Below are positions 31,262-59,946 of a stretch of 64,000 nt of DNA, one piece after another. The DNA is taken from positions 1-64,000 of the forward strand of contig NZ_JAIULG010000015.1 in NCBI RefSeq assembly GCF_020169415.1, in the 5' to 3' direction. Below the pieces are notes generated by a model. That model was not told the origin of the DNA, did no database searches, and saw nothing but the letters and a program-made list of their open reading frames with translations. Each line of letters opens with the position of its first letter. Within the stretch, counting starts at the first letter, position 1. Both the position numbers and the translations under genes were made by a program. The DNA comes from Tsukamurella sp. M9C. GTDB taxonomy: Bacteria > Actinomycetota > Actinomycetes > Mycobacteriales > Mycobacteriaceae.

Positions 31262-32716
31262 TCAGCGGAAGTCGCCGCGGGAGAAGGACTCCTCCAAGTC
31301 CTCCAGTGAGCGGCCGCTGGTGTTGGGCAGGGTCTTGTAGATCAGGACGCCGAAGAGGGCGCACACCACGAAGAACGTGCCGTACGTACCGACGATGCCA
31401 CCGACCTTGATCAGGGTGGGGAAGAGTTGCCCGACGAGGGCGTTCGTCAGCCACAGGACCAGCACCGACAGCCCCATGCCGAAACCGCGCAGCCGCAGCG
31501 GGAAGAGCTCGGACAGGCACACCCACACGGGCACGTTGAGCGCGGTCTGCATGGCGAGCACGAACAGGGCGACGAAGATCAGGACGGCGTAGGCCTGCAC
31601 CTTGCCCTCGGGCAGGATCAGCGCCGACAGCACGGTGAGGCCGTGGCAGACGGTCACGCCGATCATGCCCGCGATGATGAGCGTGCGACGGGGGACGCGG
31701 TCGATGAGGAAGAACAGGCAGACCGCGCTGCCGACGACCGCGGAGACGCCCATGAAGATGTTCGCGATCGGCGCCGCGCTGTCGCTGAAGCCGGCGGTCT
31801 TGAGCATCTCGGTCCCGTAGTACATCACCGAGTTGATGCCGGTGAGCTGCTGGGCGATCGCGAGGATCACGGCGGCGAGCATGATGCGGCGGACCCACGG
31901 GATCGCCAGGTCGGCCCAGCCGCCGGTCTGCGCGGCCTCCTCCTCGCGGGCGAGCTCCTCGACCTCCGCCATCTCGGCCCGCGCGCGGTCCTCGGTGCGG
32001 ACCTGCATGAGCACGGCGAGCGCCTCGTCGTCGCGGCCCTTCGAGATGTACCAGCGGGGCGATTCCGGCATCCGCAGCATGCCGAGGAACAGGAAGACGG
32101 CGGGCACGGCGCACACCGCGAGCATGATCCGCCACACCCCGGGATGTCCGTCGGGGTTGGCGTCGGTGAGCGGGGGCCACACGCGGGCGATGATCGCGTT
32201 GATCACGAAGGCCAGCAGCTGGCCGATCACGATGGCCAGCTCGTTGCGGCCGCCGAGGGTGCCGCGTCGCTCCGTGGGCGCCAGTTCCGACAGGTAGACG
32301 GGGACGACGACCGAGGCGCCGCCGACCGCGAGGCCGAGGACGAACCGGGCCGGCAGCATCACCGCCAGGTCGTTCGCGAAGACGGCGCCGAGCGTGCCGA
32401 CGAAGAAGACCACCGCGAGGATGATCATGGTCTTCCTGCGCCCGATGGCGTCGGCGAGCCGGCCGCAGACCAGCGCCCCGACGGCGGCCCCGATGAGCAG
32501 GGTGCTGACCACCAGGCCCTCGGTCGTCGTGGTCAGCCCCAGGTCGTGCTTCATCGGCTCCAGCGCGCCGTTGAGCACGCCGGTGTCGTAGCCGAAGAGC
32601 AGCCCGCCGAAGGTCGCGACGACCGCGACCAGGTCCATCCGCCGCTGGTGGGGGCCGGGTCTGAGGGCCGGCAGGGCTGTTCGGCCCTCCGGCGTGCTGG
32701 TGCGTCCGTCCGTCAT
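31262..32716 (-). CDS. iolT: MFS sugar porter, probable myo-inositol importer
   Basis: 484-residue sugar-porter-family symporter with 12 helices. Signature loops are present: GRLADAIGRRKTMI after helix 2, PVYLSELAPTERRG after helix 4, PESPRWYISKGR after helix 6, LTGINSVMYYGTEM in helix 7, and the IDRVPRRTL loop. Inositol uptake is inferred from the location at the edge of the iol island and from the IolR-type palindrome in its promoter region; hexose transport is an alternative. ATG 32716 with GGAAGGACTCC upstream is preferred to ATG 32779, which overlaps the operator region. Divergent from an oxidoreductase gene. Confidence 0.87.
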   Translation of the reverse strand: MTDGRTSTPEGRTALPALRPGPHQRRMDLVAVVATFGGLLFGYDTGVLNGALEPMKHDLGLTTTTEGLVVSTLLIGAAVGALVCGRLADAIGRRKTMIILAVVFFVGTLGAVFANDLAVMLPARFVLGLAVGGASVVVPVYLSELAPTERRGTLGGRNELAIVIGQLLAFVINAIIARVWPPLTDANPDGHPGVWRIMLAVCAVPAVFLFLGMLRMPESPRWYISKGRDDEALAVLMQVRTEDRARAEMAEVEELAREEEAAQTGGWADLAIPWVRRIMLAAVILAIAQQLTGINSVMYYGTEMLKTAGFSDSAAPIANIFMGVSAVVGSAVCLFFLIDRVPRRTLIIAGMIGVTVCHGLTVLSALILPEGKVQAYAVLIFVALFVLAMQTALNVPVWVCLSELFPLRLRGFGMGLSVLVLWLTNALVGQLFPTLIKVGGIVGTYGTFFVVCALFGVLIYKTLPNTSGRSLEDLEESFSRGDFR

Positions 32717-32801
32717 TCTGGAGTCCTTCCCGCTGTCCGCGTGAGGAACATCACAGCAGACCTCGAGCGTGTTTGACAAGTCGTTCGACGAGATTGAAAG
32801 A

Positions 32802-32877: not shown

Positions 32878-34053
32878 ATGCACGACGGTACGCAGCAGGA
32901 TCCGACCCCGGTGCGGGTGGCCGTGATCGGCATGGGCTGGATGGGCCGGGTGCACGCCCAGGCGTACGCCCGTGTGCCGCACCACTACCCGGACGGCGTC
33001 GCGGTGCCCGTCCTGGCCGCGGTGGCGGACGACGTCCCCGGGCGCGCGGAGACCTTCGCCGCCCGGTTCGGGGCGGCCTCCGCGTACACCGACTGGCGCG
33101 ACGTCCTCGGCGATCCGTCGATCGACGCCGTCTCGGTGACGGTGCCCAACTTCCTCCACCGCGAGATCGGCGTCGCGGTGCTCGACGCCGGCAAGCATCT
33201 GTGGATCGAGAAGCCCGTGGGCCTGACCGAGGCCGACGCGGCCGCGGTCGCGGAGGCCGCCGCTCGCAATGATCGCCGCACCGCCGTCGGCTTCAACTAC
33301 CGCAACGCCCCCGCGGTGCAGGCGGCCCGGGCCATGGTCGCCGACGGCCGGCTCGGTACCGTCACGCACGCGCGGTTCCGGTTGTTCAGCGACTACGCCG
33401 CCCATCCCGACGGTGCCCTCACGTGGCGCTACCAGCGGGACCGCGGCGGCAACGGCGTCCTCGGCGACCTCGGCTCGCACGGCGTGGACCTGGTCTCCTA
33501 CCTGCTCGGCGACATCGACGCGCTGGTCGCCGACACCGCGATCTTCATCCCCGAGCGGTCGGAGCCGACGGGTGCCACGTCGGGACACCAGCTCGCCACC
33601 TCGGGCGTGCGGGGCCCCGTCGAGAACGAGGACTACCTGTCGGCGCAGCTGCGCCTGACGTCCGGGGCGCGCTGCGTTCTCGAGGCGAGCCGGGTCGCGG
33701 TGGGGGAGCAGAACTCCTACGGCTTCGAGATCCACGGCACGTCCGGCATGGTGCGCTGGGACTACCGGCGCATGGGCGAACTCGAGGCGTCGCTCGGCGA
33801 TTCCTTCCAGGACCAGCCGGTTTCGACGGTGCACGTCGGGCCCGGCAGCGGCGACTACGCCGCCTTCCAGCCCGGCGCGGCGAATCCCATGGGCTACGAC
33901 GACCTCAAGGTGATCGAGGCCCAGCACTTCCTGCGTTCCATCGTCACCGGCGTCCCGGAGGGTGCGACGGCCCTGGACGCCGTGCGCAGCGCCCGAGCGC
34001 TGGACGCCATGACCCGTTCGGTCGACGAGGGGCGCTGGGTGACGCTCGCGTGA
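32878..34053 (+). CDS. Gfo/Idh/MocA family oxidoreductase
   Basis: 391-residue NAD(P)-dependent dehydrogenase. Rossmann motif VIGMGWMGRVHAQAY; nicotinamide-pocket lysine in WIEKPVG (about residue 108); second-domain segment NGVLGDLGSHGVDLVSYLLG with the Asp/His pair expected for sugar or cyclitol oxidation. It shares with the product of 35165-36379 a longer insertion (about 225-250) and a VENED or VENDD segment, so the two are probably paralogues. Start ATG 32878 after GGAGGTGG. Divergent from iolT, with a shared operator. Probable role: oxidation of an inositol isomer or derivative. Confidence 0.9.
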   Translation: MHDGTQQDPTPVRVAVIGMGWMGRVHAQAYARVPHHYPDGVAVPVLAAVADDVPGRAETFAARFGAASAYTDWRDVLGDPSIDAVSVTVPNFLHREIGVAVLDAGKHLWIEKPVGLTEADAAAVAEAAARNDRRTAVGFNYRNAPAVQAARAMVADGRLGTVTHARFRLFSDYAAHPDGALTWRYQRDRGGNGVLGDLGSHGVDLVSYLLGDIDALVADTAIFIPERSEPTGATSGHQLATSGVRGPVENEDYLSAQLRLTSGARCVLEASRVAVGEQNSYGFEIHGTSGMVRWDYRRMGELEASLGDSFQDQPVSTVHVGPGSGDYAAFQPGAANPMGYDDLKVIEAQHFLRSIVTGVPEGATALDAVRSARALDAMTRSVDEGRWVTLA

Positions 34054-34066
34054 ACCCGCGCGGGGA

Positions 34067-34095
34067 GACGGTGCCGGCGGACCGCCGGCACCGTC
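34067..34095. terminator. Bidirectional terminator
   Basis: 12-bp stem GACGGTGCCGGC (34067-34078) / GCCGGCACCGTC (34084-34095), 5-nt loop, between two convergent genes. Confidence 0.8.
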
Positions 34096-34100
34096 GTCCG

Positions 34101-35129
34101 TCATGCGTTCGCGGACTCCGCGAGCAAGGACTCGGTCAGGGCCGCGTCGGCGGCGAGCAGGACCTCCGCCGCGACGGCGACGCCCTCCTCCCGTCCCAGC
34201 TCGGTGTCCTCGTGCTCGATGTTGACGAGCATGTCGGGATCCACGTCGTGCAGGGCGCGCAGGAACTCGGTCCAGTACGCGACGTCGTGGCCCTTGCCCA
34301 GCGCGACGAAGTCCCAGGCGGACTCCGTCGGCCACTCGTTGGCCCACTCGTCGCCGCCGAGGTTGGTGCGGGCCTCGTCGGGGCCCAGGCGGCGGAACGA
34401 GTTGTCCAGAACCCCGTTCAGCGCCGCGTACTCCGGGTTGATGCGGACGTCCTTGGCTGCGGCGTGCACCACCAGGTCGCCGAGGTGCCGGACCACCGCC
34501 ACCGGGTCCATCTGCTGCCAGAACAGGTGCGAGGCGTCGAGCTCCACGCCGAGGTGTGTCGAGCCGGTGCGCTCGACCAGCTCGTGCACGGTCGCGCTGT
34601 TGAAGACGATGTTCTGCGGGTGCAGCTCGAGCGCGACCTTGACGCCGTGGTCGCGGGCGATGCGGTCGGTCTCGCGCCAGAAGTCGGTGGCGATCTCCCA
34701 CTGGTGGTCCAGGACGTCGAGCGCGGCGGAGTTCCAGGCGTTGACCACCCAGTTCTGGTGCAGTGCACCGGGGTCACCGCCGGGCAGGCCCGACATGGTG
34801 ACGACGCGGTCCTGGCCCAGGCGGGCCGCGAGCCGGATCGAGCGGCGGACGTCGTCGGCGTGCTTGCCGCCGATCGCGCGGTTCGGATGCAGCGGGTTGC
34901 CGTTGCAGTTGAGGCCGGCGATGGCGACGCCGGTGCCTTCGAAGATCCCGAGGTAGTCGTCGCGGGCCGTGTCGCTGACGAGTATGTCGGCGATGTTCGG
35001 CACGTGCACCGGCGGCAGGAAGCCACCGGTGTTGAGCTCGATTCCGGTGAGGCCCACCGCGGCGATGGCGCGGAGCGCGTCGGGCAGGGGGCGGTCGTGG
35101 TAGATGGCGTTGTACAGACCGAGTTTCAT
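34101..35129 (-). CDS. TIM-barrel sugar phosphate isomerase/epimerase family protein
   Basis: 342-residue AP-endonuclease-2-like barrel (the IolE/IolH/IolI fold). Metal ligand positions can be followed: E in KVALELHPQN, D and H in VELDASHLFWQQMDP, the H in VVHAAAKD, and E in VNIEHED. It is a clear paralogue of the protein at 42893-43843 (shared GNPLHP, VVTMSGLPG, DxSHLxW, KD and IExED blocks). Start ATG 35129 with GGAG-like sequence upstream. It is co-transcribed with the oxidoreductase upstream (35 bp gap), so it likely isomerises, epimerises or eliminates on the keto product made by it. Confidence 0.88.
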   Translation of the reverse strand: MKLGLYNAIYHDRPLPDALRAIAAVGLTGIELNTGGFLPPVHVPNIADILVSDTARDDYLGIFEGTGVAIAGLNCNGNPLHPNRAIGGKHADDVRRSIRLAARLGQDRVVTMSGLPGGDPGALHQNWVVNAWNSAALDVLDHQWEIATDFWRETDRIARDHGVKVALELHPQNIVFNSATVHELVERTGSTHLGVELDASHLFWQQMDPVAVVRHLGDLVVHAAAKDVRINPEYAALNGVLDNSFRRLGPDEARTNLGGDEWANEWPTESAWDFVALGKGHDVAYWTEFLRALHDVDPDMLVNIEHEDTELGREEGVAVAAEVLLAADAALTESLLAESANA

Positions 35130-35164
35130 GGAGGCTCCGTCGGAGTTGGTCGGGACTGGGGTGA

Positions 35165-36379
35165 TCAGGACTGGGGGAGGAGGGACGGCACGTCGACCGG
35201 CGTGCCACCCGCCACGGCGGATCGGGCGACGGCGTCGATGAGTTCCATGTTGTGCAGCCCGTCGACGAAGTCGGCGTTCCGCGGCAGCGATTCGTCCACA
35301 GGTAGGCCCGCGACCTCCTCGAGCATCGCGCGGGCCTGGAAGACGAAGCCGTCGTTCTGGCCGATCCCCACGCCGGGCGCGTCCATCGCGAGGCCGCCTC
35401 GCCAGTACGGGTGGTCGGGGCCGAGCGTCACCGTGCGCGGGCCGCCGAGCGCATGGCCCTCGTCGGTGAACAGGACCTGGACCCGGCCCGGGTTGCGGAA
35501 GTCGAACGCCGCCGATCCGCGCTCGCAGAAGACCTCGAACTTCAGGGTGTTGGGGTGCCCCGCGGCGACGCGGGAGACCTGCAGCGCCCCGGTCCCGCCG
35601 CCGGCGAATTCGACGAAGAAGCCCGCCACGTCGTCGTTCTCGACGGTGTCGCGCTCGTCGCTGACGGCGCCGTGCTCGTGACCGATCACGCGGCCCAACG
35701 GCTTCGGCCGCGTCGGGAACGCGGTGTGCAGCGTCGCGCCGCGCACGGTGGCGACGGGGCCGCCGAAGAGCTCGGCGATGTAGGTGAGGTGGCTGCCGAC
35801 GTCGGCGAGCGCGCCCGAACCCGCGGGGCCCTTGAAGCGCCAACTGATGGGACCGTCGGGGTCGCAGGCGTAGTCGGTCCAGTACGCGCCGTCGAAGTTG
35901 ATGAGCCGGCCGAGGCGGCCGCTGCGCACCAGGTCGCCGAGCAGGGCGATCCCGGGGGAGCGGAGGTAGGTGAGGCCGATCCGGCCCAGGACGCCGCGCT
36001 CGGCCGCCGTGTCCGCGGCGGACACCATGGCGCGCGCGTCGTCGATGGTGTCGGACAGCGGCTTCTCGCAGATCACGTGCTTGCCCGCGGCCAGAAGGGA
36101 TTCGACGATCTCGCGGTGCAGCGCGTTGGCCACGACGACGCTCACCACGTCGATGTCGGCGGCGGCGACGATCGCCTGCCAGGAGGTGTCGTGCCGCACG
36201 AAGCCGAACCGGCGAGCGGTGTCGTGCGCCAGCGGCTCGTACGCGTCGGCGATGGAGACCAGCCGCACGTCCGGCAGTCCGGGGCCGTAGACGGCGGTGG
36301 CGGCTCGATAGCCCGCGGCGTGCGCCTTGCCCGCCATGCCGGCGCCGATCACGGCGACGCCGATGCTGTTCCCGCTCAT
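35165..36379 (-). CDS. Gfo/Idh/MocA family oxidoreductase
   Basis: 404-residue NAD(P)-dependent dehydrogenase. GAGMAGKAHAAGY Rossmann motif, CEKPLSD lysine site (about residue 98), and GSGALADVGSHLTYIAELFGG in the substrate domain. A GHEHGAVSDERDTVENDD insertion resembles the paralogue at 32878. The RBS is a perfect AAGGAGGG. It starts the two-gene operon with the TIM-barrel gene and is divergent from a LacI regulator; the intergenic region has a LacI-type palindrome and an IolR-like site. Likely substrates are cyclitols or keto-sugars. Confidence 0.9.
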   Translation of the reverse strand: MSGNSIGVAVIGAGMAGKAHAAGYRAATAVYGPGLPDVRLVSIADAYEPLAHDTARRFGFVRHDTSWQAIVAAADIDVVSVVVANALHREIVESLLAAGKHVICEKPLSDTIDDARAMVSAADTAAERGVLGRIGLTYLRSPGIALLGDLVRSGRLGRLINFDGAYWTDYACDPDGPISWRFKGPAGSGALADVGSHLTYIAELFGGPVATVRGATLHTAFPTRPKPLGRVIGHEHGAVSDERDTVENDDVAGFFVEFAGGGTGALQVSRVAAGHPNTLKFEVFCERGSAAFDFRNPGRVQVLFTDEGHALGGPRTVTLGPDHPYWRGGLAMDAPGVGIGQNDGFVFQARAMLEEVAGLPVDESLPRNADFVDGLHNMELIDAVARSAVAGGTPVDVPSLLPQS

Positions 36380-36432
36380 GTTCCCTCCTTCAGGTTGCTG
36401 TGCGCTCCATCTCGACCTAGTGTCGATATGAA

Positions 36433-36446
36433 TTGGAGCGCTCCAA
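36433..36446. promoter_or_regulatory. LacI-type operator
   Basis: TTGGAGCGCTCCAA, a perfect 14-bp palindrome with the central CG step usual for LacI-family sites, 44 bp before the LacI ATG and 54 bp before the divergent oxidoreductase. Its AGCGCT core recurs in the ABC promoter at 37557-37562. Confidence 0.75.
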
Positions 36447-36460
36447 CAAGCATGAGCAAT

Positions 36461-36478
36461 GTTCGTATGTCCTGTCAA
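36461..36478. promoter_or_regulatory. IolR-like site in LacI/oxidoreductase region
   Basis: On the minus strand this reads TTGACAGGACATACGAAC, 16 of 18 positions identical to the element at the iolC start site (51428-51445). It contains the TGACAGGACA form of the TGT-N4-ACA motif (36468-36477). The TTGACA could also be a -35 for the minus-strand gene. Confidence 0.6.
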
Positions 36479-36489
36479 GAGGGTGGCGC

Positions 36490-37509
36490 ATGGAAGGTAA
36501 GCGACCGACGATCTACGACGTCGCGAGGCGGGCGGGGGTGTCGAAATCCCTGGTATCACTGGTCCTGCAGGGATCCCCGCGGGTCGGCGAGGCGTCTCGC
36601 CGGGCGGTGGAGGAGGCGATCGCGGACCTCGGGTACCGCCCCAGCCGGGCGGCGGCGAACCTCGCCGCGCGGCGCACGCGCACCGTCGGGGTGCTGATCG
36701 ACGACTACACGAACCTGTGGTTCGTCGACCTCGTGCGCGGCCTGCACGCCGCGCTCGGCCCGGCCGGCTACCGGCTGGCGGTCGTGGACGTCGCGACCGC
36801 GGATCAGGCTGAGGATCCGGTCGAGTCCATGCTCGCCATGCGGGTCGACGGGCTCGTGCTCGGCATGGATCCACCGCAATCGCTGCTGGCCCGAGACGGT
36901 GCCGCGCTGCCGCCGGTCGTGGTCGCGGGCACGCGGGCGGCGCACGACGCGCGGTTCGACGCGGTCGCCAACGACGACGCCGAGGGGGCGCGCCTCGCCG
37001 CCCGGCACCTCGTCGAACTGGGGCATCGCACCCTCGGTCAGGTGTGCGCCGGCGGCGGCGCGGGTGAGGTGCGGCGCGCGGCGTTCTCCGTCGAGGCCTC
37101 GCGCCTCGGCGCGACCGTGGTGGACGCCTCCTGGCGCGGCGAGGCGTCGGACGAGGCCGGGTTCCGCGCCGCCGCCGAGCTGTTCGCCGCCGATCCCGGG
37201 GTCACCGCGGTGTTCGCGGCGAACGACGTGATGGCCGTCGGCGTGCTCGGAGCGGCGCGCGAACACGGGCGGGACGTTCCGCGCGATCTCTCCGTCGTCG
37301 GCTACGACGACACCTCGCTGGCGTCGACCCGGTTGGTGGGGCTGACGACGGTCGACGACCGCAGCTTCGACGTGGGGAACCGGGCGGGTGCGCTCCTGCG
37401 CGACCGGATGGGGGCGGACGGCGGCGCATCGTCGTCGGCGCGCGACAGCGAGAGGGATGTTCTCGCACCGCGACTGGTCGTCCGGGGGACCACGGGAGCA
37501 CCCAGTTGA
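36490..37509 (+). CDS. LacI family transcriptional regulator (ABC-cluster)
   Basis: 339-residue LacI/GalR repressor. N-terminal helix-turn-helix PTIYDVARRAGVSKSLVSLVL and hinge region around GYRPSRAAANLAARRTRTVG, then a periplasmic-binding-protein-like sensor domain (VLIDDYTNLWFVDLVRGLH, VAGTRAAHDARFDAVANDD, VVGYDDTSLASTRL). Start ATG 36490 after AAGAGGGTG; the longer open frame begins inside the operator. It lies directly before the ABC importer and opposite an oxidoreductase operon, so it probably controls both through the TTGGAGCGCTCCAA site. The effector is likely the imported cyclitol or sugar. Confidence 0.92.
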   Translation: MEGKRPTIYDVARRAGVSKSLVSLVLQGSPRVGEASRRAVEEAIADLGYRPSRAAANLAARRTRTVGVLIDDYTNLWFVDLVRGLHAALGPAGYRLAVVDVATADQAEDPVESMLAMRVDGLVLGMDPPQSLLARDGAALPPVVVAGTRAAHDARFDAVANDDAEGARLAARHLVELGHRTLGQVCAGGGAGEVRRAAFSVEASRLGATVVDASWRGEASDEAGFRAAAELFAADPGVTAVFAANDVMAVGVLGAAREHGRDVPRDLSVVGYDDTSLASTRLVGLTTVDDRSFDVGNRAGALLRDRMGADGGASSSARDSERDVLAPRLVVRGTTGAPS

Positions 37510-37533
37510 GCCACAAGATCGCGGCAATGTGCG

Positions 37534-37579
37534 TATGTCTGAACAAACACTAGGCAAGCGCTGTGATCTGTACTACATT
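37534..37579 (+). promoter_or_regulatory. ABC importer promoter with two operator-like elements
   Basis: TATGTCTGAACAAA (37534-37547, core TGTCTGAACA) is an IolR-like palindrome; CAAGCGCTGTG carries the AGCGCT core (37557-37562) of the LacI site; TACATT (37574-37579) is the best -10. The AGCGCT core would fall in the -35/-10 spacer. The layout suggests dual control by the GntR and LacI proteins. Confidence 0.5.
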
Positions 37580-37628
37580 CAGCTCAGCGAGTGGGTCGTC
37601 TCACTCGGTGAGGTCGAAGGGACACAGC

Positions 37629-38651
37629 ATGAAGAAGACCACGCAGCGGCCGCGAAGGCTCCGTACCCTGCTCGCCGCGACCGCGGCCGGCACGGCGGCG
37701 CTCATCACGGTGGTGGGTTGCTCGAGCACGGGCGGCGCTCCGCGCGACACCGGGGACGGTGGTGCCGGCGTCGGCTCGGCGGGCACGAAGCGCCTGACCA
37801 TCGCCATGGTCACGCACCAGCAGCCCGGCGACACCTTCTGGGATCTCATCCGCAAGGGCGCGGAGATGGCGGCGAAGAAGGACAACGTCACCCTCCGGTA
37901 CTCCAACGACCCGCAGGCGCCCAACCAGGCGAACCTGGTGCAGGCCGCGATCGACAGCAAGGTCGACGGGATCGCGCTCACGCTGTCCACACCCAATGCC
38001 TTCCAGGCCGTGGTGCAGAACGCGCAGAAGGCGGGGATCCCGGTCTCCGCGTTCAACGCCGGCTACAACGACTACGCGCGCATGGGGATCCAGCAGTACT
38101 TCGGCCAGGACGAGACCACCGCGGGCGTCGCGGTGGGCGAGCGCCTCTCCAAGGAGGGCGCGAAGAAGGCCATCTGCATCATCCAGCAGCAGGGCCAGGT
38201 CCAGCTCGAGTCGCGATGCGCGGGGGTCCGGACCGGCCTTGCGGGCGGCACCGTCGAGAACCTCAACGTCAACGGCGAGGACATGACCGATGTGCAGTCC
38301 AAGGTCAACGCCAAGCTGCAGCAGGATCCGAGCATCGACACCGTCGTGGCTCTGGGTGCGCCGTTCGCGCTGACGGCGAGCAAGGCCCTGGAGGGCTCCG
38401 CGAGCAAACCCCGCATCGTCACCTTCGACACCAACGCGGCACTGGTCGGCGCGATCCAGAACGGGAAGGTCGCGTGGGCCGTCGACCAGCAGCCTTACCT
38501 CCAGGGCTACCTCGCCATCGACTCGCTCTGGCTGCAGATCATCAACGGCAACACCATCGGCGGCGGCCAGGCCGTGTTCACCGGTCCGGCGTTCATCGAC
38601 AAGACCAACGTCGACAAGGTCGCCGAGCTCGCCAAGGGCGGGACCCGCTGA
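37629..38651 (+). CDS. ABC transporter sugar/cyclitol-binding lipoprotein
   Basis: 340-residue extracytoplasmic binding protein. Twin basic n-region, hydrophobic helix and lipobox VVGCSS (lipidated Cys near residue 31), then a Peripla_BP_4 (ribose/inositol-type) fold: IAMVTHQQPGDTFWDLIRKGAEMAA, DGIALTLSTPNAFQAVV, and VALGAPFALTASKALEG. Start ATG 37629 after GAAGGGAC. First gene of a three-gene CUT2-type importer, its stop overlapping the permease start by one base. Ligand likely an inositol isomer or sugar, inferred only from context. Confidence 0.92.
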   Translation: MKKTTQRPRRLRTLLAATAAGTAALITVVGCSSTGGAPRDTGDGGAGVGSAGTKRLTIAMVTHQQPGDTFWDLIRKGAEMAAKKDNVTLRYSNDPQAPNQANLVQAAIDSKVDGIALTLSTPNAFQAVVQNAQKAGIPVSAFNAGYNDYARMGIQQYFGQDETTAGVAVGERLSKEGAKKAICIIQQQGQVQLESRCAGVRTGLAGGTVENLNVNGEDMTDVQSKVNAKLQQDPSIDTVVALGAPFALTASKALEGSASKPRIVTFDTNAALVGAIQNGKVAWAVDQQPYLQGYLAIDSLWLQIINGNTIGGGQAVFTGPAFIDKTNVDKVAELAKGGTR

Positions 38652-39709
38652 TGACCACCGACGAGGCCCTCGACCTGAGTACGCACACGCCCGTCACCGA
38701 CGAGCGGGTCAAGAAGCAGAAGCCCCTGCAGCGGTTGATCCTGCGCCCCGAGATGGGTGCGTTGATCGGCGCGATCGCGATCCTGATCTTCTTCCTGATC
38801 GTGGCGCCGCCCTTCCGCAGCCCGGAGGCCTTCGCCACCGTGCTGTACGCCAGCTCTACGATCGGCATCATGGCCTGCGGCGTCGCCGTGCTCATGATCG
38901 GCGGCGAGTTCGACCTGTCGACCGGTGTGGCCGTGACCTTCTCGTCGCTCGCGGCGTCGATGCTCGCCTACAACCTGCACCTGAACACGTGGGTGGGATC
39001 CCTGCTCGCCCTGGGGCTGTCGCTCGTGGTGGGCGCCTTCAACGGCTACATGGTGATGCGCACCAAGATCCCCAGCTTCCTCATCACGCTGGCCACGTTC
39101 CTCATGCTCACCGGCATCAACCTCGCGGTCACCAAGATGGTCACCGGTCAGGTCGCCACCCCCACGATCGCGGACATGGAGGGCTTCCCGTCGGCGCAGG
39201 CCGTCTTCTCCTCGACGATCCACATCTTCGGCGTCGGCCTCAAGGTGACGGTCCTGTGGTGGATCCTGTTCACCGCGGTCGCCACGTACGTCCTCATGCG
39301 CACCCGCGTCGGCAACTGGATCTTCGCCGTCGGCGGCAACCAGGATTCAGCACGCGCCGTGGGCGTCCCGGTCACCAAGGTCAAGATCGGCCTGTTCATG
39401 TTCGTGGCCTTCTGCGCCTGGTTCGTCGGCCAGCACCTGCTGTACGCCTACGACACCGTCCAGTCCGGGCAAGGCGTCGGCAACGAGTTCCTGTACATCA
39501 TCGGCGCCGTCATCGGCGGCTGCCTCCTCACGGGCGGCTACGGCACCGCGGTCGGGGCCATGATCGGCGCCTTCATCTTCGGCATGGTCAACCAGTGCAT
39601 CGTCTACGCCGGCTGGAACCCCGACTGGTTCAAGTTCTTCCTCGGCATCATGCTGCTGTTCGCCGTGATCGCCAACAACGCATTCCGCAACTTCGCCGCG
39701 AAGAGGTGA
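38651..39709 (+). CDS. ABC sugar transporter permease (CUT2/RbsC type)
   Basis: 352-residue polytopic permease of the ribose/xylose family with about 9-10 helices. Visible: GGEFDLSTGVAVTFSSLAA (the conserved GGIDLS-like stretch), KIPSFLITLATFLMLTG, and the EAA-like cytoplasmic loop NWIFAVGGNQDSARAVGVPV. Start ATG 38651 is part of TGATG with the binding-protein stop. One permease gene implies a homodimeric channel. Confidence 0.93.
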   Translation: MTTDEALDLSTHTPVTDERVKKQKPLQRLILRPEMGALIGAIAILIFFLIVAPPFRSPEAFATVLYASSTIGIMACGVAVLMIGGEFDLSTGVAVTFSSLAASMLAYNLHLNTWVGSLLALGLSLVVGAFNGYMVMRTKIPSFLITLATFLMLTGINLAVTKMVTGQVATPTIADMEGFPSAQAVFSSTIHIFGVGLKVTVLWWILFTAVATYVLMRTRVGNWIFAVGGNQDSARAVGVPVTKVKIGLFMFVAFCAWFVGQHLLYAYDTVQSGQGVGNEFLYIIGAVIGGCLLTGGYGTAVGAMIGAFIFGMVNQCIVYAGWNPDWFKFFLGIMLLFAVIANNAFRNFAAKR

Positions 39710-39713
39710 CCCG

Positions 39714-40526
39714 ATGACCACGGACGATATTCAGGCCGAGACGCCCGACACCGGCGACGACAAGGTCGCGCTGATCGAGTTCAAGGACGTCGGCAAGCAG
39801 TACGGCAACATCATCGCGCTCCAGGGGATCAACCTCCGCGTGTTCCCCGGCGAGGTCACCTGCGTGCTCGGCGACAACGGCGCGGGCAAGTCGACGCTGA
39901 TCAAGACGATGGCGGGGCTGCACAAGCCCAGCGAGGGCGAGGTCCTCGTCGACGGCGAGGTCACCACCCTCGACTCGCCCAAGGACGCGCTCGAGAAGGG
40001 CGTCGCCACCGTCTACCAGGACCTCGCGGTCGTGGGGCTGATGCCGGTGTGGCGCAACTTCTTCCTCGGGCAGGAGCTGCGCTCGGGCTTCCTCAAGAGC
40101 CTCGACGTGCAGACCATGCGCGCCACGACGAAGGAGGAGCTGTTCAAGATGGGCATCGACCTCCCGGACGTGGACGCCCCGATCAGCTCGTTGTCGGGCG
40201 GCCAGCGGCAGTGCGTCGCGATCGCCCGGGCGATCTACTTCGGGGCGCGCGTGCTGATCCTCGACGAGCCGACGGCCGCGCTGGGCGTCAAGCAGTCCGG
40301 CATGGTGCTGCGGTACATCACCGCGGCCCGGGACCAGGGCTTCGGCGTCGTCTTCATCACGCACAACCCGCACCACGCGTACATGGTCGGCGATCACTTC
40401 GTGCTGCTCAATCGCGGCCGGCAGAAGCTGGACTGCACGTACGACGAGATCAGCCTGGAGGAGCTGACCTCGCAGATGGCGGGCGGCGACGAGCTCGAGA
40501 CCCTCAGCCACGAACTGCGCAGGTGA
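39714..40526 (+). CDS. ABC transporter ATP-binding protein (single domain)
   Basis: 270-residue ATPase driving the importer. Walker A GDNGAGKST, Q-loop VYQDLAVV, signature LSGGQRQ, Walker B VLILDEPTAAL and H-loop FITHNPHH are all intact. Unlike RbsA or XylG (about 500 residues, two ABC domains) it has one domain, as in the FrcA type, so it should dimerise. It begins 4 bp after the permease stop and is followed after 4 bp by an oxidoreductase gene, so transport and catabolic genes form one operon. Confidence 0.94.
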   Translation: MTTDDIQAETPDTGDDKVALIEFKDVGKQYGNIIALQGINLRVFPGEVTCVLGDNGAGKSTLIKTMAGLHKPSEGEVLVDGEVTTLDSPKDALEKGVATVYQDLAVVGLMPVWRNFFLGQELRSGFLKSLDVQTMRATTKEELFKMGIDLPDVDAPISSLSGGQRQCVAIARAIYFGARVLILDEPTAALGVKQSGMVLRYITAARDQGFGVVFITHNPHHAYMVGDHFVLLNRGRQKLDCTYDEISLEELTSQMAGGDELETLSHELRR

Positions 40527-40530
40527 TCCG

Positions 40531-41688
40531 GTGGCGGCGACGCTCCTCGAACGCTTCCGGCGCCGGCTGCGGGTCGCGATGGTCGGCGGTGGGATCGGCA
40601 GCTACATCGGCGAGACCCACGCCATCGCGCTCCGCACCGACGGTCTGTGGGACCTCGTGGCGGGAGCCTTCTCCCGCACGCCGGCGACGAACGCGGCCAC
40701 CGGGCGGTCGTGGCTCGTGCCACCGGACCGCACCTACGCGGATCACCGCGCGCTCATCGCTGGGGAGTCCGCGCGGGCGGACCCCGTCGACGCGGTGATC
40801 GTCGCGACCCGGCCGTCGAGCCACGCCGAGATCGCCTGCGACCTCCTCGCAGCCGGTTTCCACGTGATCTGCGAGAAGCCGCTCACCGATACCGCCGCCG
40901 ACGCCCGCCGGGTCGCGGCGGCGGTGGCCGGATCGGGCCGGCGGCTCATGCTGACCCACTGTTACAGCGGCTATCCCATGGTGCGCCAGGCGCGGGAGAT
41001 GGTCGCCCGGGGCGACCTCGGGCGGATCACCCTGGTCGAGAGCAGGTTCGCGGGCGGGATGTACGCGGCGAACACACCGCCCGGCTCGTGGCGCGTGGAC
41101 GGCACGGAGGGCGGCGTGACCGCGCTGATCGCCGATCTCGGCACGCACGCGCTGCACCTCGCGGAGTTCGTCGGCGGCAGGCGGATCACGACGGTCGCCG
41201 CGGACCTCGCACGGGTCGCCCCCGAGCACGTGGCCTTCGACAACGCCTACCTCGGCCTCGGATTCGAGGGCGGTGCCCGCGGCCGCTGCTGGAGCACGTC
41301 CCAGGCCGCCGGGGCCACGCACGGCCTCGCGGTCACCGTCTACGGCGACCGCGGCAGCGTGGCCTGGGACCACGACACCCCGGAGACGCTGTGGTGGCGT
41401 GCGGACGGCGAGCCCGATCGTCTGCTCACCAAGGCCGGACCCGCGGCGACACCGGCAGCGATCGCCGCGTCCCGGTTCACCGCCGGCCACCCCGACGGGT
41501 ACGCCCTCGCCTTCGCGAACCTCTACCGCGACTTCGCTCGTGCGCTGCTCGCCGATGCGTTGGGCGAGGACCCCGTTCCGTACCTGGTTGATCTCCCCGA
41601 CGTCGCCGACGGCGTCCGCACCCTCGCCGTCGTCGAGGCCGCCGTCCGGTCCGACGAGGCCGGTCGCCCCGTCTCCGTCGACACCTGA
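40531..41688 (+). CDS. Gfo/Idh/MocA family oxidoreductase
   Basis: 385-residue NAD(P)-dependent dehydrogenase. A basic N-terminal extension precedes VAMVGGGIGSYIGETHAIAL, a Rossmann motif with the GGxGS form; ICEKPLTD carries the active-site Lys (about residue 113); GVTALIADLGTHALHLAEFVGG is the substrate-domain helix with Asp and His. The EADHRAL-free insert YADHRALIAGESARADP is typical for subfamily members near ABC cyclitol importers. GTG start with only 4 bp after the ATPase gene. Probably the first oxidation of the imported compound. Confidence 0.9.
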   Translation: MAATLLERFRRRLRVAMVGGGIGSYIGETHAIALRTDGLWDLVAGAFSRTPATNAATGRSWLVPPDRTYADHRALIAGESARADPVDAVIVATRPSSHAEIACDLLAAGFHVICEKPLTDTAADARRVAAAVAGSGRRLMLTHCYSGYPMVRQAREMVARGDLGRITLVESRFAGGMYAANTPPGSWRVDGTEGGVTALIADLGTHALHLAEFVGGRRITTVAADLARVAPEHVAFDNAYLGLGFEGGARGRCWSTSQAAGATHGLAVTVYGDRGSVAWDHDTPETLWWRADGEPDRLLTKAGPAATPAAIAASRFTAGHPDGYALAFANLYRDFARALLADALGEDPVPYLVDLPDVADGVRTLAVVEAAVRSDEAGRPVSVDT

Positions 41689-41715
41689 CCACCACCGACC
41701 CGAATCGAGCACCGC

Positions 41716-42891
41716 ATGACCGAGCCGATCCGCGTGGCCCTCGTGGGCTGCGGCAACATCGCCCTGGGTTTCCACATCCCCGCCTACCTCGCCGCGGACG
41801 ACCGGTTCCGCATCGTCGGCATCGCCGATCCGACACCGGAACGGCTCGAGCTGGGGCGCGTCGCGGCCGGGCTCACGCCGGAGCAGGTACATGCGGACGT
41901 TGCCGACCTGCTGGCGCGCGACGACGTCGACGCGCTCGACTTGTGCACCCCGCAGCACCTGCATCGCGACGTCGCGATCGCCGCGGCCCGCGCCGGCAAG
42001 CACGTGCTGTGCGAGAAGCCGATCGCCGCCGTCCCCGCGGACGCCGAGGCCATGCGCGTCGCGGCCGAGGAGGCGGGAACCGTCCTCGCCGTGGTCGCCA
42101 ACTACCTGTTCTTCCCGGAGGTGGTGGCGCTCACGGCGATCATCGACTCGGGCGAGCTCGGCGAGATCCGCACGGCGCGCGTCGACATGCTGGGTGTCCT
42201 GGACCTGCCGGGCGCGGCGGGCTATCGGCCCACGTGGCGGCACGATCCCGCGCAGGCGGGCGGGGGCGTCCTGGTCGACATGCTGCACGGGGTGTATCTC
42301 GCCGAGGCCCTCCTCGGCGCCCGCGCGGAGCGGGTCTCCGCGTTCGTGGACAGCGCGAGCGACGGCGACGCCGTCGACGGAATCGCATTGTGCCGCCTCG
42401 AGGCCGGCCGCCGCGTCGCGATGGTGAACATCGCGTGGGGCATGGGCCAGGGCGGTGTCGCGGTCGAGGGGGACCGGGGCCGCGCCGTCGCGCACTACCG
42501 CGCGGACGGGACGATGCCGTGGGCGCCGTTCGAATCCCTCACCGTCACCACGGAGTCCGGGACGCGCACCGTCGACCTCCCGGCGGGCGCCGAACTGGAG
42601 TCCCTCATCGCCGCGTCGATGCGCGACACGGTGCTCGACTTCGCCGATGCGATCGGCGGCGGCCGTGCGCCCGCCGTCGATGCCGCGACGGCCCGGCACA
42701 TCCTCGAGATCACCGTGGCCGCGTACGCGTCGGGCGCCCTCGGCGCGACAGTGCCGCTCCCACTCGACGGCGCTCTGTTCACCTCCGGGGTCGCCGGTCT
42801 CGCGGAGATCGGCGTGCCCGACGACTCCTTCGTCCGTCGTCGTGGGCTGTTCGGTCTGACGGTGCCTGCGGCGTCCGGGATCGAGGGCTGA
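41716..42891 (+). CDS. Gfo/Idh/MocA family oxidoreductase
   Basis: 391-residue NAD(P)-dependent dehydrogenase. VALVGCGNIALGFHIPAYL Rossmann motif, LCEKPIA lysine (about residue 98), and GGGVLVDMLHGVYLAEALLG, where the expected DxxxH is replaced by DMLHG, so the catalytic pair differs from classic IolG. It has its own C-terminal tail rich in hydrophobic residues. Start ATG 41716, 27 bp after the previous gene; the next gene begins one base after its stop. Role probably a second redox step on the same compound. Confidence 0.88.
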   Translation: MTEPIRVALVGCGNIALGFHIPAYLAADDRFRIVGIADPTPERLELGRVAAGLTPEQVHADVADLLARDDVDALDLCTPQHLHRDVAIAAARAGKHVLCEKPIAAVPADAEAMRVAAEEAGTVLAVVANYLFFPEVVALTAIIDSGELGEIRTARVDMLGVLDLPGAAGYRPTWRHDPAQAGGGVLVDMLHGVYLAEALLGARAERVSAFVDSASDGDAVDGIALCRLEAGRRVAMVNIAWGMGQGGVAVEGDRGRAVAHYRADGTMPWAPFESLTVTTESGTRTVDLPAGAELESLIAASMRDTVLDFADAIGGGRAPAVDAATARHILEITVAAYASGALGATVPLPLDGALFTSGVAGLAEIGVPDDSFVRRRGLFGLTVPAASGIEG

Positions 42892-42892
42892 C

Positions 42893-43843
42893 GTGCAGAT
42901 CGGACTGCTCACCGACAGCCTCTCCGAGCTCACCCGCGCCGAGGCCCTCGACACGGCCGTGGACCTCGGCGTCGAGACCGTCGAGATCGGCCTGGGCGGT
43001 GTGCACGGCGGGTGGTCGCCCGCCCCGCACGCCGATCTGGCGGAACTGCTGGACGACGGTGCCGCCCGGGCCGCGCTGGCCCGGGACATCGGATCGCGCG
43101 GGCTGCGGCTCGAGGCCTTCAACGCCGCCGGGAATCCGCTCCATCCCCGGCACGGGGAGCGCGACGCCGCGGTCCTGCGCGGCGCGCTGCGGCTCGCGGA
43201 GGATTTCGAGATCGGCACGGTCGTCACCATGTCCGGCCTTCCCGGCTATCCGGGCGATACCGTGCCCCCGTGGATCACGACGGTCTGGCCGCCCGAGAAC
43301 CTGGAGCTCCTGGATTACCAGTGGGAACGGGCCATCGGCTGGTGGGGGCCGATCGCGGACGAGGCTCGCGCTCGCGGCGTACGGATCGCCGTCGAGATGC
43401 ACGCCAACCAGCTCGTCTACAACGTGCCCGGTCTCCTGCGGCTGCGCGCCACCGTGGGTGATGTGGTGGGCGCGAACTTCGATCCCAGCCACCTCATCTG
43501 GATGGGCGCCGACCCGCTCGCCGCGATCCGCGCCCTGGACGGCGCGATCCATCACGTGCACGCCAAGGACACCCGCATCGAGGACCGGGCGGCGGTCGCC
43601 TCGCGGCTCGAGACCGTCCCGAATCCGCGTACCGGCGAGCGGGCGTGGAACTACGTCGCGGTCGGCACCGGCCACCCGGACGGGGTCGACTTCTGGGTGC
43701 GGTTCATCGCCGCGCTCCGGCACGCCGGGTACGACGGCCCGCTGTCCATCGAGAACGAGGACTACACGCTCGGCCAGCGCGAATCCGTCGCCCCGGCCGT
43801 CGAGACGCTGCGCGCCGCGCAGAACCTGGAGGAGGTGCGATGA
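42893..43843 (+). CDS. TIM-barrel sugar phosphate isomerase/epimerase family protein
   Basis: 316-residue AP-endonuclease-2-like barrel, paralogous to the protein at 34101-35129. Metal-site residues: E in RIAVEMHANQ, D and H in FDPSHLIWMGADP, H in HHVHAKD, and E in SIENEDY. GTG 42893 directly follows the stop of the upstream oxidoreductase (one base gap) and its own stop overlaps the next gene (ATGA). The 3-keto-sugar or inosose made by the flanking oxidoreductases would be a natural substrate for isomerisation or elimination. Confidence 0.88.
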   Translation: MQIGLLTDSLSELTRAEALDTAVDLGVETVEIGLGGVHGGWSPAPHADLAELLDDGAARAALARDIGSRGLRLEAFNAAGNPLHPRHGERDAAVLRGALRLAEDFEIGTVVTMSGLPGYPGDTVPPWITTVWPPENLELLDYQWERAIGWWGPIADEARARGVRIAVEMHANQLVYNVPGLLRLRATVGDVVGANFDPSHLIWMGADPLAAIRALDGAIHHVHAKDTRIEDRAAVASRLETVPNPRTGERAWNYVAVGTGHPDGVDFWVRFIAALRHAGYDGPLSIENEDYTLGQRESVAPAVETLRAAQNLEEVR

Positions 43844-44841
43844 GCAGGATCAGGATCGCGGTGCTGGGTTGCGGCCGGATCGGGCGCGTGCACGCCGATT
43901 CGGTCGCGGTGAGCGAGCGCGCCGAGCTGGCATGGGTCTTCGACCCGATCGAGGCGGCGGCGTCGGAGGTCGGCGAGCGCTTCGGCGCCGCATGGACGAC
44001 CGACGTCGAGGAGGTCCTCGAGGCCCGTGACGTGGACGCCGTCGTGGTCGCCTCGCCGACGCCGACGCACGTCGATCTGCTCACCCGCGCCGTGCGAACG
44101 GGACGGACCGTGCTGTGTGAGAAGCCCATCGACCTCGACATCGCCCGGGTCGACGCCTGCCGCGCCGATCTGGGCGACCTCACCGACAGGGTGATGCTCG
44201 GCTTCAACCGCCGGTTCGACTCCTCCTTCGCCGAGGTCCGCCGTCGCGTCGACGCGGGCGAGATCGGCCCGCTGGAGCAGCTGACCATCGTCAGCCGCGA
44301 TCCCGCGCCGCCGCCGGCGGACTACGTCGCCTCTTCGGGCGGGCTGTTCCGGGACATGATGATCCACGATCTCGATCTCGCCCGGTTCTTCCTCGGCGAG
44401 GTGGTGGCGGTGTCGGCGCTGGGATCGAACCTGGTCTCCGCGGAGATCCGCGCGGCCGGCGACATCGACGGCGCCATGGTCGTGCTGCGCGGCGCCGGCG
44501 GGCAGCTGGCGACCATCACCAACTCCCGGCGCTGCGCCTACGGTTACGACCAGCGGCTCGAGGCCTTCGGCGCGTTGGGTTCGCTCACCGCCGCCAACCA
44601 GCACGCGACGTCGGTGGCCTTCTCGGGCGCGGCTCACACCGGCGCCGCGGGGCCGGTCCTGAACTTCTTCCTGGATCGGTACACCCCGGCCTATCGCGCC
44701 GAGCTCGACGCCTTCGTGACGATGACGGAGACCGGCGGCGCGGCATCGCCCGGGTTCGTCGACGGCCGCGCGGCCCTGGTGCTCGCCGACGCCGCCGCCG
44801 AGTCCCTCCGCACCGGAGCCGTGGTCGAGGTCCGGGCGTGA
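43840..44841 (+). CDS. Inositol 2-dehydrogenase-like oxidoreductase (second IolG)
   Basis: 333-residue Gfo/Idh/MocA enzyme closest in pattern to canonical inositol 2-dehydrogenase, which oxidises myo-inositol to scyllo-inosose: IAVLGCGRIGRVHADSV, LCEKPID (Lys about residue 95), MLGFNRRFDSSFAEVR, and GGLFRDMMIHDLDLARFFLG with the catalytic Asp/His. It is a second copy besides the gene at 58916, so it may serve another stereoisomer (for example scyllo- or D-chiro-inositol). ATG 43840 follows GGAGG and overlaps the previous stop by 4 bp. Confidence 0.9.
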   Translation: MSRIRIAVLGCGRIGRVHADSVAVSERAELAWVFDPIEAAASEVGERFGAAWTTDVEEVLEARDVDAVVVASPTPTHVDLLTRAVRTGRTVLCEKPIDLDIARVDACRADLGDLTDRVMLGFNRRFDSSFAEVRRRVDAGEIGPLEQLTIVSRDPAPPPADYVASSGGLFRDMMIHDLDLARFFLGEVVAVSALGSNLVSAEIRAAGDIDGAMVVLRGAGGQLATITNSRRCAYGYDQRLEAFGALGSLTAANQHATSVAFSGAAHTGAAGPVLNFFLDRYTPAYRAELDAFVTMTETGGAASPGFVDGRAALVLADAAAESLRTGAVVEVRA

Positions 44842-45854
44842 CGGTGCGTTGGGGCCTACTCGCCACCTCGGGGATCGGTCGCGTCGCCGCCCGCGCGATC
44901 GCCGCCGCCGGCGGCGCCGAGCTCGCCGCCGTCGCGGGTCGTGACACGGGGCGCGCCGCCGCCTACGCGGCCGAGGTGGGATCGCCCGCCGCGTACGGGA
45001 GTTACGAGGAGCTGCTCGCCGACAGCGGCATCGACGCGGTCTACGTGCCGCTGCCGATCACGCTCCACGGTGAGTGGGCGATCCGGGCGCTGGAGGCGGG
45101 GAAGCACGTGCTGTGCGAGAAGCCGCTCACCCTGGACCCGGACGAGGCGACGGCCGTCTTCGACGCCGCGGAGCGCGCGGGGCGGCACGCGATCGAGGGC
45201 TTCATGTGGCGGCTGCACCCGCAGACGCTGCTGGTCCGTCGACTGCTTGCGGAGGGCGCGATCGGTGAGCTCGCGCTCGTCCGCGCCGCGCTCAGCGTGA
45301 GCGCCCCCGCCGGCGACATCCGGCGCACGACCGATCTCGGCGGCGGCGCGTTGGCGGACCTCGGCGGGTACTGCGTCAGCGCGGTGCGGCTGTTCGGCGG
45401 CGAACCGGCGACGGTGCGCGCCGTGCGGGTCGCGGATCCGGCCGGTACCGGCGCGGGCCACGATCTGCGTGCCTCCGCGGTCCTCGAACTGGAGGGCGGC
45501 GTCCTCGGGCTGATCGACGTCGGACTGGACCTGGACCGGCGCGACCAGCTCGAGCTCGTCGGTACGGAGGGACGGATCGTCGTCGACGATCCGTGGCTGT
45601 GCCGGTTCGGCGCCGTCGAGCTGATCCGCGGGGAACGGGCGGAGCGGTTGCCGGCGGATCCGGGCGGCGCCTTCGGCCTGACGCCACCCGGGCCCGACAA
45701 CGAGGACGCCTACCGGATCGAGTTCGAGGCGGCGAGCGCCGCCTTCGCCGGCGGGGCGGAGCCGGCCTTCGGCCGGAACGACGCGATCGCGCAGGCCCGT
45801 GCCCTCGCCGCCGCGCGGCGGTCCGCCGCGGAGGGCGTCACGATAGTCCTGTAG
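44838..45854 (+). CDS. Gfo/Idh/MocA oxidoreductase, xylose/dihydrodiol dehydrogenase-like
   Basis: 338-residue NAD(P)-dependent dehydrogenase. The start VRWGLLATSGIGRVAARAIA, the YVPLPITLHGEWAIRALEAGKH stretch, LCEKPLTL lysine site and EGFMWRLHPQ are characteristic of the D-xylose 1-dehydrogenase (NADP)/trans-dihydrodiol dehydrogenase branch. Substrate domain: GGGALADLGGYCVSAVRLFGG, with Tyr where others have His. GTG start overlapping the upstream gene by 4 bp. Last gene of the operon; a strong hairpin follows. Confidence 0.9.
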   Translation: MTVRWGLLATSGIGRVAARAIAAAGGAELAAVAGRDTGRAAAYAAEVGSPAAYGSYEELLADSGIDAVYVPLPITLHGEWAIRALEAGKHVLCEKPLTLDPDEATAVFDAAERAGRHAIEGFMWRLHPQTLLVRRLLAEGAIGELALVRAALSVSAPAGDIRRTTDLGGGALADLGGYCVSAVRLFGGEPATVRAVRVADPAGTGAGHDLRASAVLELEGGVLGLIDVGLDLDRRDQLELVGTEGRIVVDDPWLCRFGAVELIRGERAERLPADPGGAFGLTPPGPDNEDAYRIEFEAASAAFAGGAEPAFGRNDAIAQARALAAARRSAAEGVTIVL

Positions 45855-51446: not shown

Positions 51447-51494
51447 GGAGTGATCCACGTCTCGTCCGGGACCAGGCTAAGGAGGGCCTCCCAC

Positions 51495-52472
51495 ATGACT
51501 GACGCCGGTACCCACGGTGCCCCGTTCGACCTGATCACCATCGGGCGGGTCGGGGTCGACATCTACCCCCTGCAGGACGGTGTCGGACTCGATCGCGTCG
51601 AGACCTTCGGCAAGTACCTCGGGGGCAGCGCGACCAACGTCGCCGTCGCCGCGGCCCGTCACGGCCGACGGTCCGCGGTCATCACGGCGACCGGCGCGGA
51701 TCCGTTCGGGCGCTTCGTTCATCAGGAGCTGGTGCGCCTCGGCGTCGACGACCGGTACGTGGGCGAGATCCGCGGCCTGAACACCCCCGTCACCTTCTGC
51801 GAGATCTTCCCGCCGGACGACTTCCCGCTCTACTTCTACCGCGACCCGATCGCGCCGGACCTCATGCTGGACGACGACGCGCTCGACCTCGACGCGATCC
51901 GCTCCGCGAAGATCTTCTGGGCCACCGTCACCGGGCTCTCCCGCGAGCCCAGCCGCTCCGCGCACCACACGGCGTGGAACGCCCGCGGCCGCGCCCCGCT
52001 GACCGTCCTCGACCTCGACTACCGGCCCATGTTCTGGGAGTCCGCCGAGGTCGCGAGCCAGGAGGTGGGCAAGGCCCTCGAGCACGTCACCGTCGCCATC
52101 GGCAACCGCGAGGAGTGCGAGGTCGCGGTCGGCGAGACCGAGCCCGGCCGCGCCGCCGACGCCCTGCTGGAGCGCGGCGTCGAGCTCGCCGTGGTGAAGC
52201 AGGGCCCCAAGGGCGTCCTCGCGAAGACCCGGGACGAGAGTGTCGAGGTCGCACCGCACTTCGTCGACGTGATCAACGGTCTCGGCGCCGGTGACGGCTT
52301 CGGCGGCGCCGTCTGCCACGGCCTGCTCGCGGGCTGGCCGCTCGAGCGGGTTCTGCGCTTCGCCAACGTCGCCGGGGCCATCGTCGCCTCGCGCCGCGAA
52401 TGCTCGACCGCCATGCCCACCACCGACGAGGTGGAGTCCGTCATCGAGGAACGGGACAACAACCATGTCTGA
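51495..52472 (+). CDS. iolC: 5-dehydro-2-deoxygluconokinase
   Basis: PfkB-family kinase that phosphorylates 5-dehydro-2-deoxy-D-gluconate (DKG) to its 6-phosphate with ATP. 325 residues. Substrate-binding GRVGVDIYPLQDG and KYLGGSATNVAVAAARHG at the N-terminus; ATP/anion hole NGLGAGDGFGGAVCHGLL with the catalytic Asp near residue 265; NREECEVAVGETE typical of IolC. ATG 51495 follows AAGGAGGG. First gene of the iol operon; its end overlaps the aldolase gene by 8 bp. Confidence 0.95.
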   Translation: MTDAGTHGAPFDLITIGRVGVDIYPLQDGVGLDRVETFGKYLGGSATNVAVAAARHGRRSAVITATGADPFGRFVHQELVRLGVDDRYVGEIRGLNTPVTFCEIFPPDDFPLYFYRDPIAPDLMLDDDALDLDAIRSAKIFWATVTGLSREPSRSAHHTAWNARGRAPLTVLDLDYRPMFWESAEVASQEVGKALEHVTVAIGNREECEVAVGETEPGRAADALLERGVELAVVKQGPKGVLAKTRDESVEVAPHFVDVINGLGAGDGFGGAVCHGLLAGWPLERVLRFANVAGAIVASRRECSTAMPTTDEVESVIEERDNNHV

Positions 52473-53376: not shown

Positions 53377-53410
53377 CCACCCGCATCCACCTCCGCGAAG
53401 GAGCCGCTCC

Positions 53411-59938: not shown

Positions 59939-59946
59939 GGGGCAGC

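Follow-up and report, generated by a model that had tools for sequence, protein, structure and literature searches.

The window analysed here is a stretch of 64,000 nucleotides from Tsukamurella sp. M9C (contig NZ_JAIULG010000015.1), and the element under study is the gene island at 32878–45854, which precedes the core inositol (iol) genes. The island encodes six oxidoreductases of the Gfo/Idh/MocA type (GfoA to GfoF), two TIM barrels (TIM34 and TIM42), a LacI regulator and an ATP-binding cassette (ABC) importer. It probably represents an extended inositol/cyclitol regulon. Dehydrogenases that differ in specificity would feed keto-cyclitols to barrels resembling AtHYD, which would isomerise or (de)hydrate these compounds and so pass them to the iolE/iolD route. 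The sequence data show the gene content and linkage, the operator, the phylogeny, and the motifs and fold; the substrates, the reaction and its direction are inferred.

According to the Pfam and NCBIfam scans, the island contains the six Gfo proteins, two PF01261 barrels, LacI, a CUT2-type substrate-binding protein (SBP), a permease and an ATPase. PF01408 has eight matches in the 4.73 Mb genome. Seven of them lie in the window, six at 32878–45854, and the seventh window protein is the core iolG at 58922–59938. TIM34 adjoins GfoB, TIM42 adjoins GfoD, and the LacI–SBP–permease–ATPase set (36490–40526) is located between both pairs. The two barrels are paralogues with 36% identity. Thus, the arrangement described in the earlier note, six oxidoreductases beyond the core iolG and two paralogous barrels in Gfo–barrel pairs near an ABC importer, is confirmed. 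As that note also claimed, glycoside hydrolase families are absent among the 20 Pfam-scanned proteins. The features are as follows.

31262..32776, minus strand: sugar porter family transporter of the major facilitator superfamily (MFS), divergent from GfoA (TIGR00879, 328.8 bits, cutoff 237.8)
32878..34053, plus strand: GfoA, NAD-type oxidoreductase of the scyllo-inositol dehydrogenase clade (PDB 6a3f/5ya8 matches, tree, motifs)
34101..35129, minus strand: TIM34, PF01261 barrel with altered metal site
35165..36379, minus strand: GfoB, oxidoreductase paired with TIM34, in its own clade beside levoglucosan dehydrogenase and scyllo-inositol dehydrogenase
36433..36446, no strand: predicted operator TTGGAGCGCTCCAA, a palindrome between GfoB and LacI36
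36490..37509, plus strand: LacI36 regulator (339 residues; annotated homologue 340)
37629..38651, plus strand: SBP of the inositol/rhizopine type (nearest 4ru1)
38651..39709, plus strand: ABC permease (BPD_transp_2, Pfam)
39714..40526, plus strand: ABC ATPase, single domain
40531..41688, plus strand: GfoC, NADP-type with SR at position 35 (nearest solved 3v5n)
41716..42891, plus strand: GfoD, unclassified, with incomplete GxGxxG and shifted D/H region
42893..43843, plus strand: TIM42, PF01261 barrel with canonical metal ligands
43840..44841, plus strand: GfoE, OxiD-type inositol 2-dehydrogenase with the myo-/D-chiro-inositol motif (TIGR04380)
44838..45854, plus strand: GfoF, Tyr-type, NADP-type oxidoreductase/ketoreductase (nearest solved 4had)
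51450..60822, plus strand: core genes iolC, aldolase-like, iolA, iolB, iolD, iolE, iolG and a last gene with no NCBIfam match

Operator, iol linkage and importer

The operator core TGGAGCGCTCCA occurs only once in the genome. In 14 of the 15 loci examined, the GfoB/LacI intergenic region carries TGGNNCGNNCCA sites, which always read TGGARCGYTCCA; L100 has no site. A pattern derived from the window's own site was then searched in 16 whole genomes picked for bearing GfoB or TIM34. The exact 12-mer was detected at 17 sites in 13 of the 16, one per genome in all eight of the genus, and the reversed pattern gave two matches. Each of the 17 exact sites is located either at GfoB/LacI or in front of TIM34 or the SBP homologue. 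In Paeniglutamicibacter psychrophenolicus, 33 kb separate GfoB from TIM34, and an operator site is present at each. From this placement, including the separated genes, we conclude that LacI36 is predicted to control GfoB and TIM34 jointly. A weaker LacI-type palindrome candidate is present at 37589 (two mismatches), and a loose pattern match at 32834. The remaining three matches have three mismatches each, as expected by chance.

GfoB lies within 300 bp of the TIM34-type barrel in 20 of 26 loci. Core iol genes are present in the fetched stretch of 14 of the 26, and importer genes likewise in 14. Seven of the 12 loci with no core genes belong to congeners whose stretch ends early; in six of these, iolD lies on the same contig at a distance of about 18–24 kb, and in the seventh (G569) it is on another contig. 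At the genome level, iolD is present in 27 of 28 barrel-bearing genomes (the exception is G052) versus 161 of the 394 genomes sampled from the class. For the non-own barrel-bearing genomes the figures are 11/12 versus 149/382 (381 by exact count), with a Fisher p of about 3e-4 in a test that ignores relatedness, 7 of the 12 genomes being from the window's own family. By positions, the barrel is within 25 kb of iolD in 16 of the 28 genomes, on another contig in ten, and 590 kb away in one.

The best solved relative of the SBP is 4ru1 (347.6 bits); model NF052284 gives 197.7 bits, below its cutoff of 420. 4ru1 is termed a verified myo-inositol transporter (PMC10747050). The same source describes the ABC transporter of the Mycobacterium smegmatis inositol cluster, two proteins of which are up in inositol-containing Dulbecco's modified Eagle medium. 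The clean one-operator regulon makes the GfoB–TIM34 pair an easy unit to test, and the pair could supply a step that actinobacterial inositol catabolism still lacks, either the isomerase or the entry of derivatives. It would also link inositol catabolism to 3-keto-glycoside chemistry.

Oxidoreductases and barrels

GfoE scores 381.2 bits on TIGR04380 (inositol 2-dehydrogenase, OxiD/IolG), above the curated cutoff of 355, and the five other island Gfo proteins are all below it. The nearest solved protein to GfoE is Corynebacterium glutamicum OxiD (3EUW, 349.7 bits, 52% identity). According to the alignment, the Lys/Asp/His triad and the GFNRRFD and YGY motifs are all present in GfoE, and these two motifs mark the NAD-dependent myo/D-chiro-inositol enzymes (PMC9603128).

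The best-scoring model for GfoA (280.1 bits) and GfoB (248.9 bits) is the levoglucosan dehydrogenase (LGDH) model NF052479, and the parts list of the island resembles lgdA-lgdB1-lgdB2-lgdC. These features would fit a levoglucosan-type anhydrosugar pathway that is a mere neighbour of the iol genes. However, both proteins are far below the cutoff of 650 bits, which LgdA of Paenarthrobacter histidinolovorans and of Arthrobacter sp. 9AX exceeds with 750 bits. A quick Gfo tree of 76 rows was built without bootstrap (92 candidate rows cut to 64, plus 12 reference or window rows). In this tree, GfoA clusters with the scyllo-inositol dehydrogenase 5YA8 with a Shimodaira–Hasegawa approximate likelihood-ratio (SH-aLRT) support of 91, under the 95 mark, and the Paenarthrobacter LgdA clusters with 6A3F (SH-aLRT 100). 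GfoB forms a separate clade beside these two groups. Furthermore, TIM34 of P. histidinolovorans is at an iol cluster, on a contig different from that of LgdA. The levoglucosan pathway was rejected on score and tree, and we regard it as very improbable.

A His at the motif-V position is linked to scyllo preference (PMC9603128); GfoB has His and GfoA has Glu. By the NAD/NADP rule of the same article, Ser-Arg in GfoC and Gly-Arg in GfoF at the discriminating position make both NADP-type. In GfoF the catalytic His is replaced by Tyr; its nearest solved structures are 4had and then the sugar 3-ketoreductase 3rbv. For GfoC they are 3v5n, then 3dty and 7d5m/7d5n. For GfoD, the DgpA match scores 84.4 bits, about the same as the matches to 3v5n and 3q2k, and no search was aimed at an eliminase partner. 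In the tree, GfoC and GfoD are on long branches with congener rows only, and GfoF joins weakly related rows. The earlier note had named placement of every protein in known inositol clades as the outcome that would speak against it; because GfoC, GfoD, GfoF and both barrels fall outside such clades, the outcome is a different one.

Among structures with a named activity, Foldseek places AtHYD nearest to both barrels, with an identity of 16–19%. The profile search gives an E value of 2.3e-10 for AtHYD versus 2.1e-5 for IolI, and IolI ranks 20 and 13 in the Foldseek lists, below AtHYD. IolI (1i60) is not among the best 50 re-ranked matches, which excludes nothing, as Foldseek itself lists IolI. 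The IolI-type inosose isomerases have four metal ligands, Glu, Asp, His and Glu. TIM42 retains all four. In the TIM34 clade, the strand-7 His is replaced by Ala, so that one of the four is lost, and the strand-6 Asn is replaced by Glu. This altered metal site is, with the single-operator regulon, among the least expected points. For the TIM34 clade, the relocated site, together with LacI and GfoB, might reflect an undescribed keto-cyclitol reaction, such as β-elimination of an O-substituent, by which methylated or glycosylated inositols would become the IolD substrate, bypassing iolE; we hold this proposal to be unlikely.

Alternatively, the Gfo proteins might be nothing more than redundant inositol dehydrogenases, and the barrels ordinary isomerases of the IolI type that serve D-chiro-inositol. 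C. glutamicum requires such an isomerase, described as not yet identified in 2022, and a putative isomerase gene is present in its oxiC–oxiE operon (PMC9603128). Our literature search yielded no C. glutamicum isomerase identified by name. A 2023 report, which was not found in this search, is said to identify Cg0212 and Cg2312 as inosose isomerases. The position of IolI below AtHYD in both searches, the missing ligand of TIM34, and the retention of two dissimilar barrels make this explanation quite improbable.

Another explanation is glycoside or ether cleavage, in which a Gfo enzyme would oxidise a substituted inositol (or its sugar), the barrel would β-eliminate the O-substituent to give inositol or the IolD diketone, and GfoF would reduce the leftover 3-keto sugar. 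The galactinol-like cleavage proposed in the earlier note has support only at the level of fold (AtHYD is nearest to both barrels) and of context (a Pantoea relative beside a GMC-type dehydrogenase set). However, the identity to AtHYD is only 16–19%, and the TIM34 clade has lost a canonical ligand. No AtOGE-like second barrel was found beside either pair among the 20 Pfam-scanned proteins, and no search was aimed at a DgpB-type partner. A literature search combining galactinol, inositol dehydrogenase, β-elimination, 3-keto and cyclitol gave nothing relevant. We consider this explanation rather unlikely. The cyclitol assignment and the oxidoreductase–barrel pairing logic of the earlier note are supported by linkage, the shared operator, the importer and phylogeny, and of its two options, the galactinol-like cleavage fits less well than a processing of inositol isomers or derivatives ahead of the core pathway.

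In the extended cyclitol regulon, the inositol-type ABC importer and the MFS porter would take up cyclitols. The Gfo dehydrogenases would oxidise different cyclitols: GfoE myo- and D-chiro-inositol, GfoA a scyllo-type cyclitol, and GfoB a related substrate. Both barrels may remove the α-proton of the resulting keto-cyclitol with metal assistance, and then shift the carbonyl group or epimerise, or eliminate water (or ROH), and the product would enter iolE/iolD. GfoB and TIM34 may form a single unit under a LacI regulator of their own, and GfoC–GfoD–TIM42–GfoF a second, optional unit.

Conservation and distribution

All island genes are present in five fetched congeners (G561, G563, G566, G567 and G573). 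Additional genes are inserted in the island of G566. In G567 (completeness 83%), GfoD is split into two pieces (L068 4253–5354), which may be decay or an assembly error. A record of Tsukamurella tyrosinosolvens shows the identical annotated gene order, with TIM34 at 95%. This record, 'plasmid 9' (L126), carries ilvC, ilvN, serA and 3-isopropylmalate dehydrogenase, and may therefore be a chromosome fragment. Among the 15 congeners searched, TIM42 orthologues (84–94%) were found in seven, only a TIM34-type barrel in two, and neither in six. In the congener G572 (L067), GfoC, GfoD and TIM42 are missing from the stretch that separates the ATPase from GfoE, and GfoF is missing after GfoE; a GfoF-like stretch (42%) is located elsewhere in the locus. 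These four genes are all present in the five other fetched congeners, and block-wise gain or loss of GfoC–GfoD–TIM42–GfoF therefore rests on one fetched genome.

The TIM34 query matched 172 plasmid records, and 12 were looked at. Among these, iol genes are linked to the barrel in Tsukamurella, Phaeobacter, Rhizobium indigoferae and Arthrobacter sp. StoSoilB13, and a TIM42-type barrel is inside iol operons on the Phaeobacter and R. indigoferae plasmids. A Thioclava record has a LacI–ABC–Gfo–barrel set. The Acidiphilium record has a MocE-family ferredoxin and stretches like iolG, iolE and the last core gene at the barrel locus. In this record (Acidiphilium multivorum pACMV1, L134), the TIM42-type barrel and three Gfo genes are beside a desaturase–MocE ferredoxin–FAD oxidoreductase set, which resembles rhizopine demethylation genes. 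On the Pantoea sp. BRR-3P plasmid (L132), a GfoC-like/TIM42-type pair is beside cytochrome c, a GMC oxidoreductase and gluconate 2-dehydrogenase subunit 3, and this locus has the look of periplasmic glycoside oxidation. In Acidisarcina the barrel has a DUF1080 neighbour, and in Haloterrigena it is in a sugar cluster. By tblastn, no strong core iol match was detected in three unannotated records (Sinorhizobium mexicanum, R. leguminosarum and Paenibacillus). These sugar-type and non-iol plasmid contexts indicate that the wider barrel family extends beyond inositol. By best hit, the ten homologues from outside Actinomycetota resemble TIM42 (38–48%) more closely than TIM34.

Several observations weigh against the cyclitol regulon. 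The relatives in Pantoea, Acidisarcina and Haloterrigena sit in sugar contexts. Core iol genes are not in the stretch at 5 of the 19 non-congener TIM34 loci (L073, L076, L078, L102 and L104), nor at the TIM42-type loci L016 and L018. The scyllo marker is not decisive in the GfoA/GfoB branch, because the motif-V residue of 5YA8, itself a scyllo-inositol dehydrogenase, is Tyr. In both fold and sequence, AtHYD is nearer to the barrels than IolI and IolE are. On the IolE model TIGR04379, TIM34 scores 39.7 and TIM42 36.7 bits, below the cutoff of 290, and on this score the reading of a barrel as a simple IolE duplicate was rejected.

The core iolE at 57915 gives 137.4 bits on TIGR04379, also below the cutoff, and the core iolG is below both of its cutoffs (295 versus 540 on one model, and 163.8 versus 355 on TIGR04380). 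The last core-cluster gene (59941–60822) has no NCBIfam match, and we take it to be iolH-like. Between the island and iolC (45888–49316) are an MFS gene, a short-chain dehydrogenase/reductase (47341–48129) and a PhyH-family dioxygenase (48126–49316). PhyH homologues recur at the iol loci L019, L022, L024, L026, L067 and L079, which suggests an iron/2-oxoglutarate-dependent step on O-methyl or other cyclitols. A literature search for phytanoyl-CoA dioxygenase with inositol and pinitol gave no match.

Comparison with known systems

The statement of the earlier note that no such system is known in this layout was too strong. Seven putative inositol dehydrogenases are known from C. glutamicum, together with the operon oxiC-cg3390 (putative isomerase)-oxiD-oxiE (PMC9603128), and the levoglucosan and AtOGE/AtHYD operons share the parts list. 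As in its iol2 cluster, many Gfo enzymes are in the inositol regulon, in the order Gfo–isomerase-like–OxiD–Gfo; unlike iol2, the island adds the ABC importer, GfoC and the LacI–GfoB–TIM34 unit. In the Arthrobacter-type loci L025 and L026, a Gfo gene and a second gene precede OxiD. Orthology of GfoD–TIM42 to these genes was rejected: the Gfo matches only GfoA and GfoF, weakly, and the second gene has no match to TIM42.

The levoglucosan lgdA-lgdB1-lgdB2-lgdC genes likewise combine a Gfo enzyme, PF01261 barrels and an ABC importer, with oxidation followed by enolate chemistry, whereas the island dehydrogenases are not LGDH and are clustered with iol genes (PMC7676230, PMC10066097). The island barrels share the AtHYD-like fold with the GlycDH-AtOGE-AtHYD-Gfo operon of A. 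tumefaciens (PMC10628242); unlike in that operon, no GMC dehydrogenase or AtOGE-like barrel was found beside the pairs, and the identity to AtHYD is low. Phaeobacter inhibens pP24_b (NZ_CP010698.1) has the order LacI-SBP-permease-ATPase-Gfo-TIM42-type barrel-TIM-iolG-iolC-iolD-iolE-iolB, matching parts of the island; it differs in having one barrel of the TIM42 type, and in being an alphaproteobacterium. With C. glutamicum offering a precedent of its type, the island layout is an extension of an already known kind of pathway and not a wholly new one.

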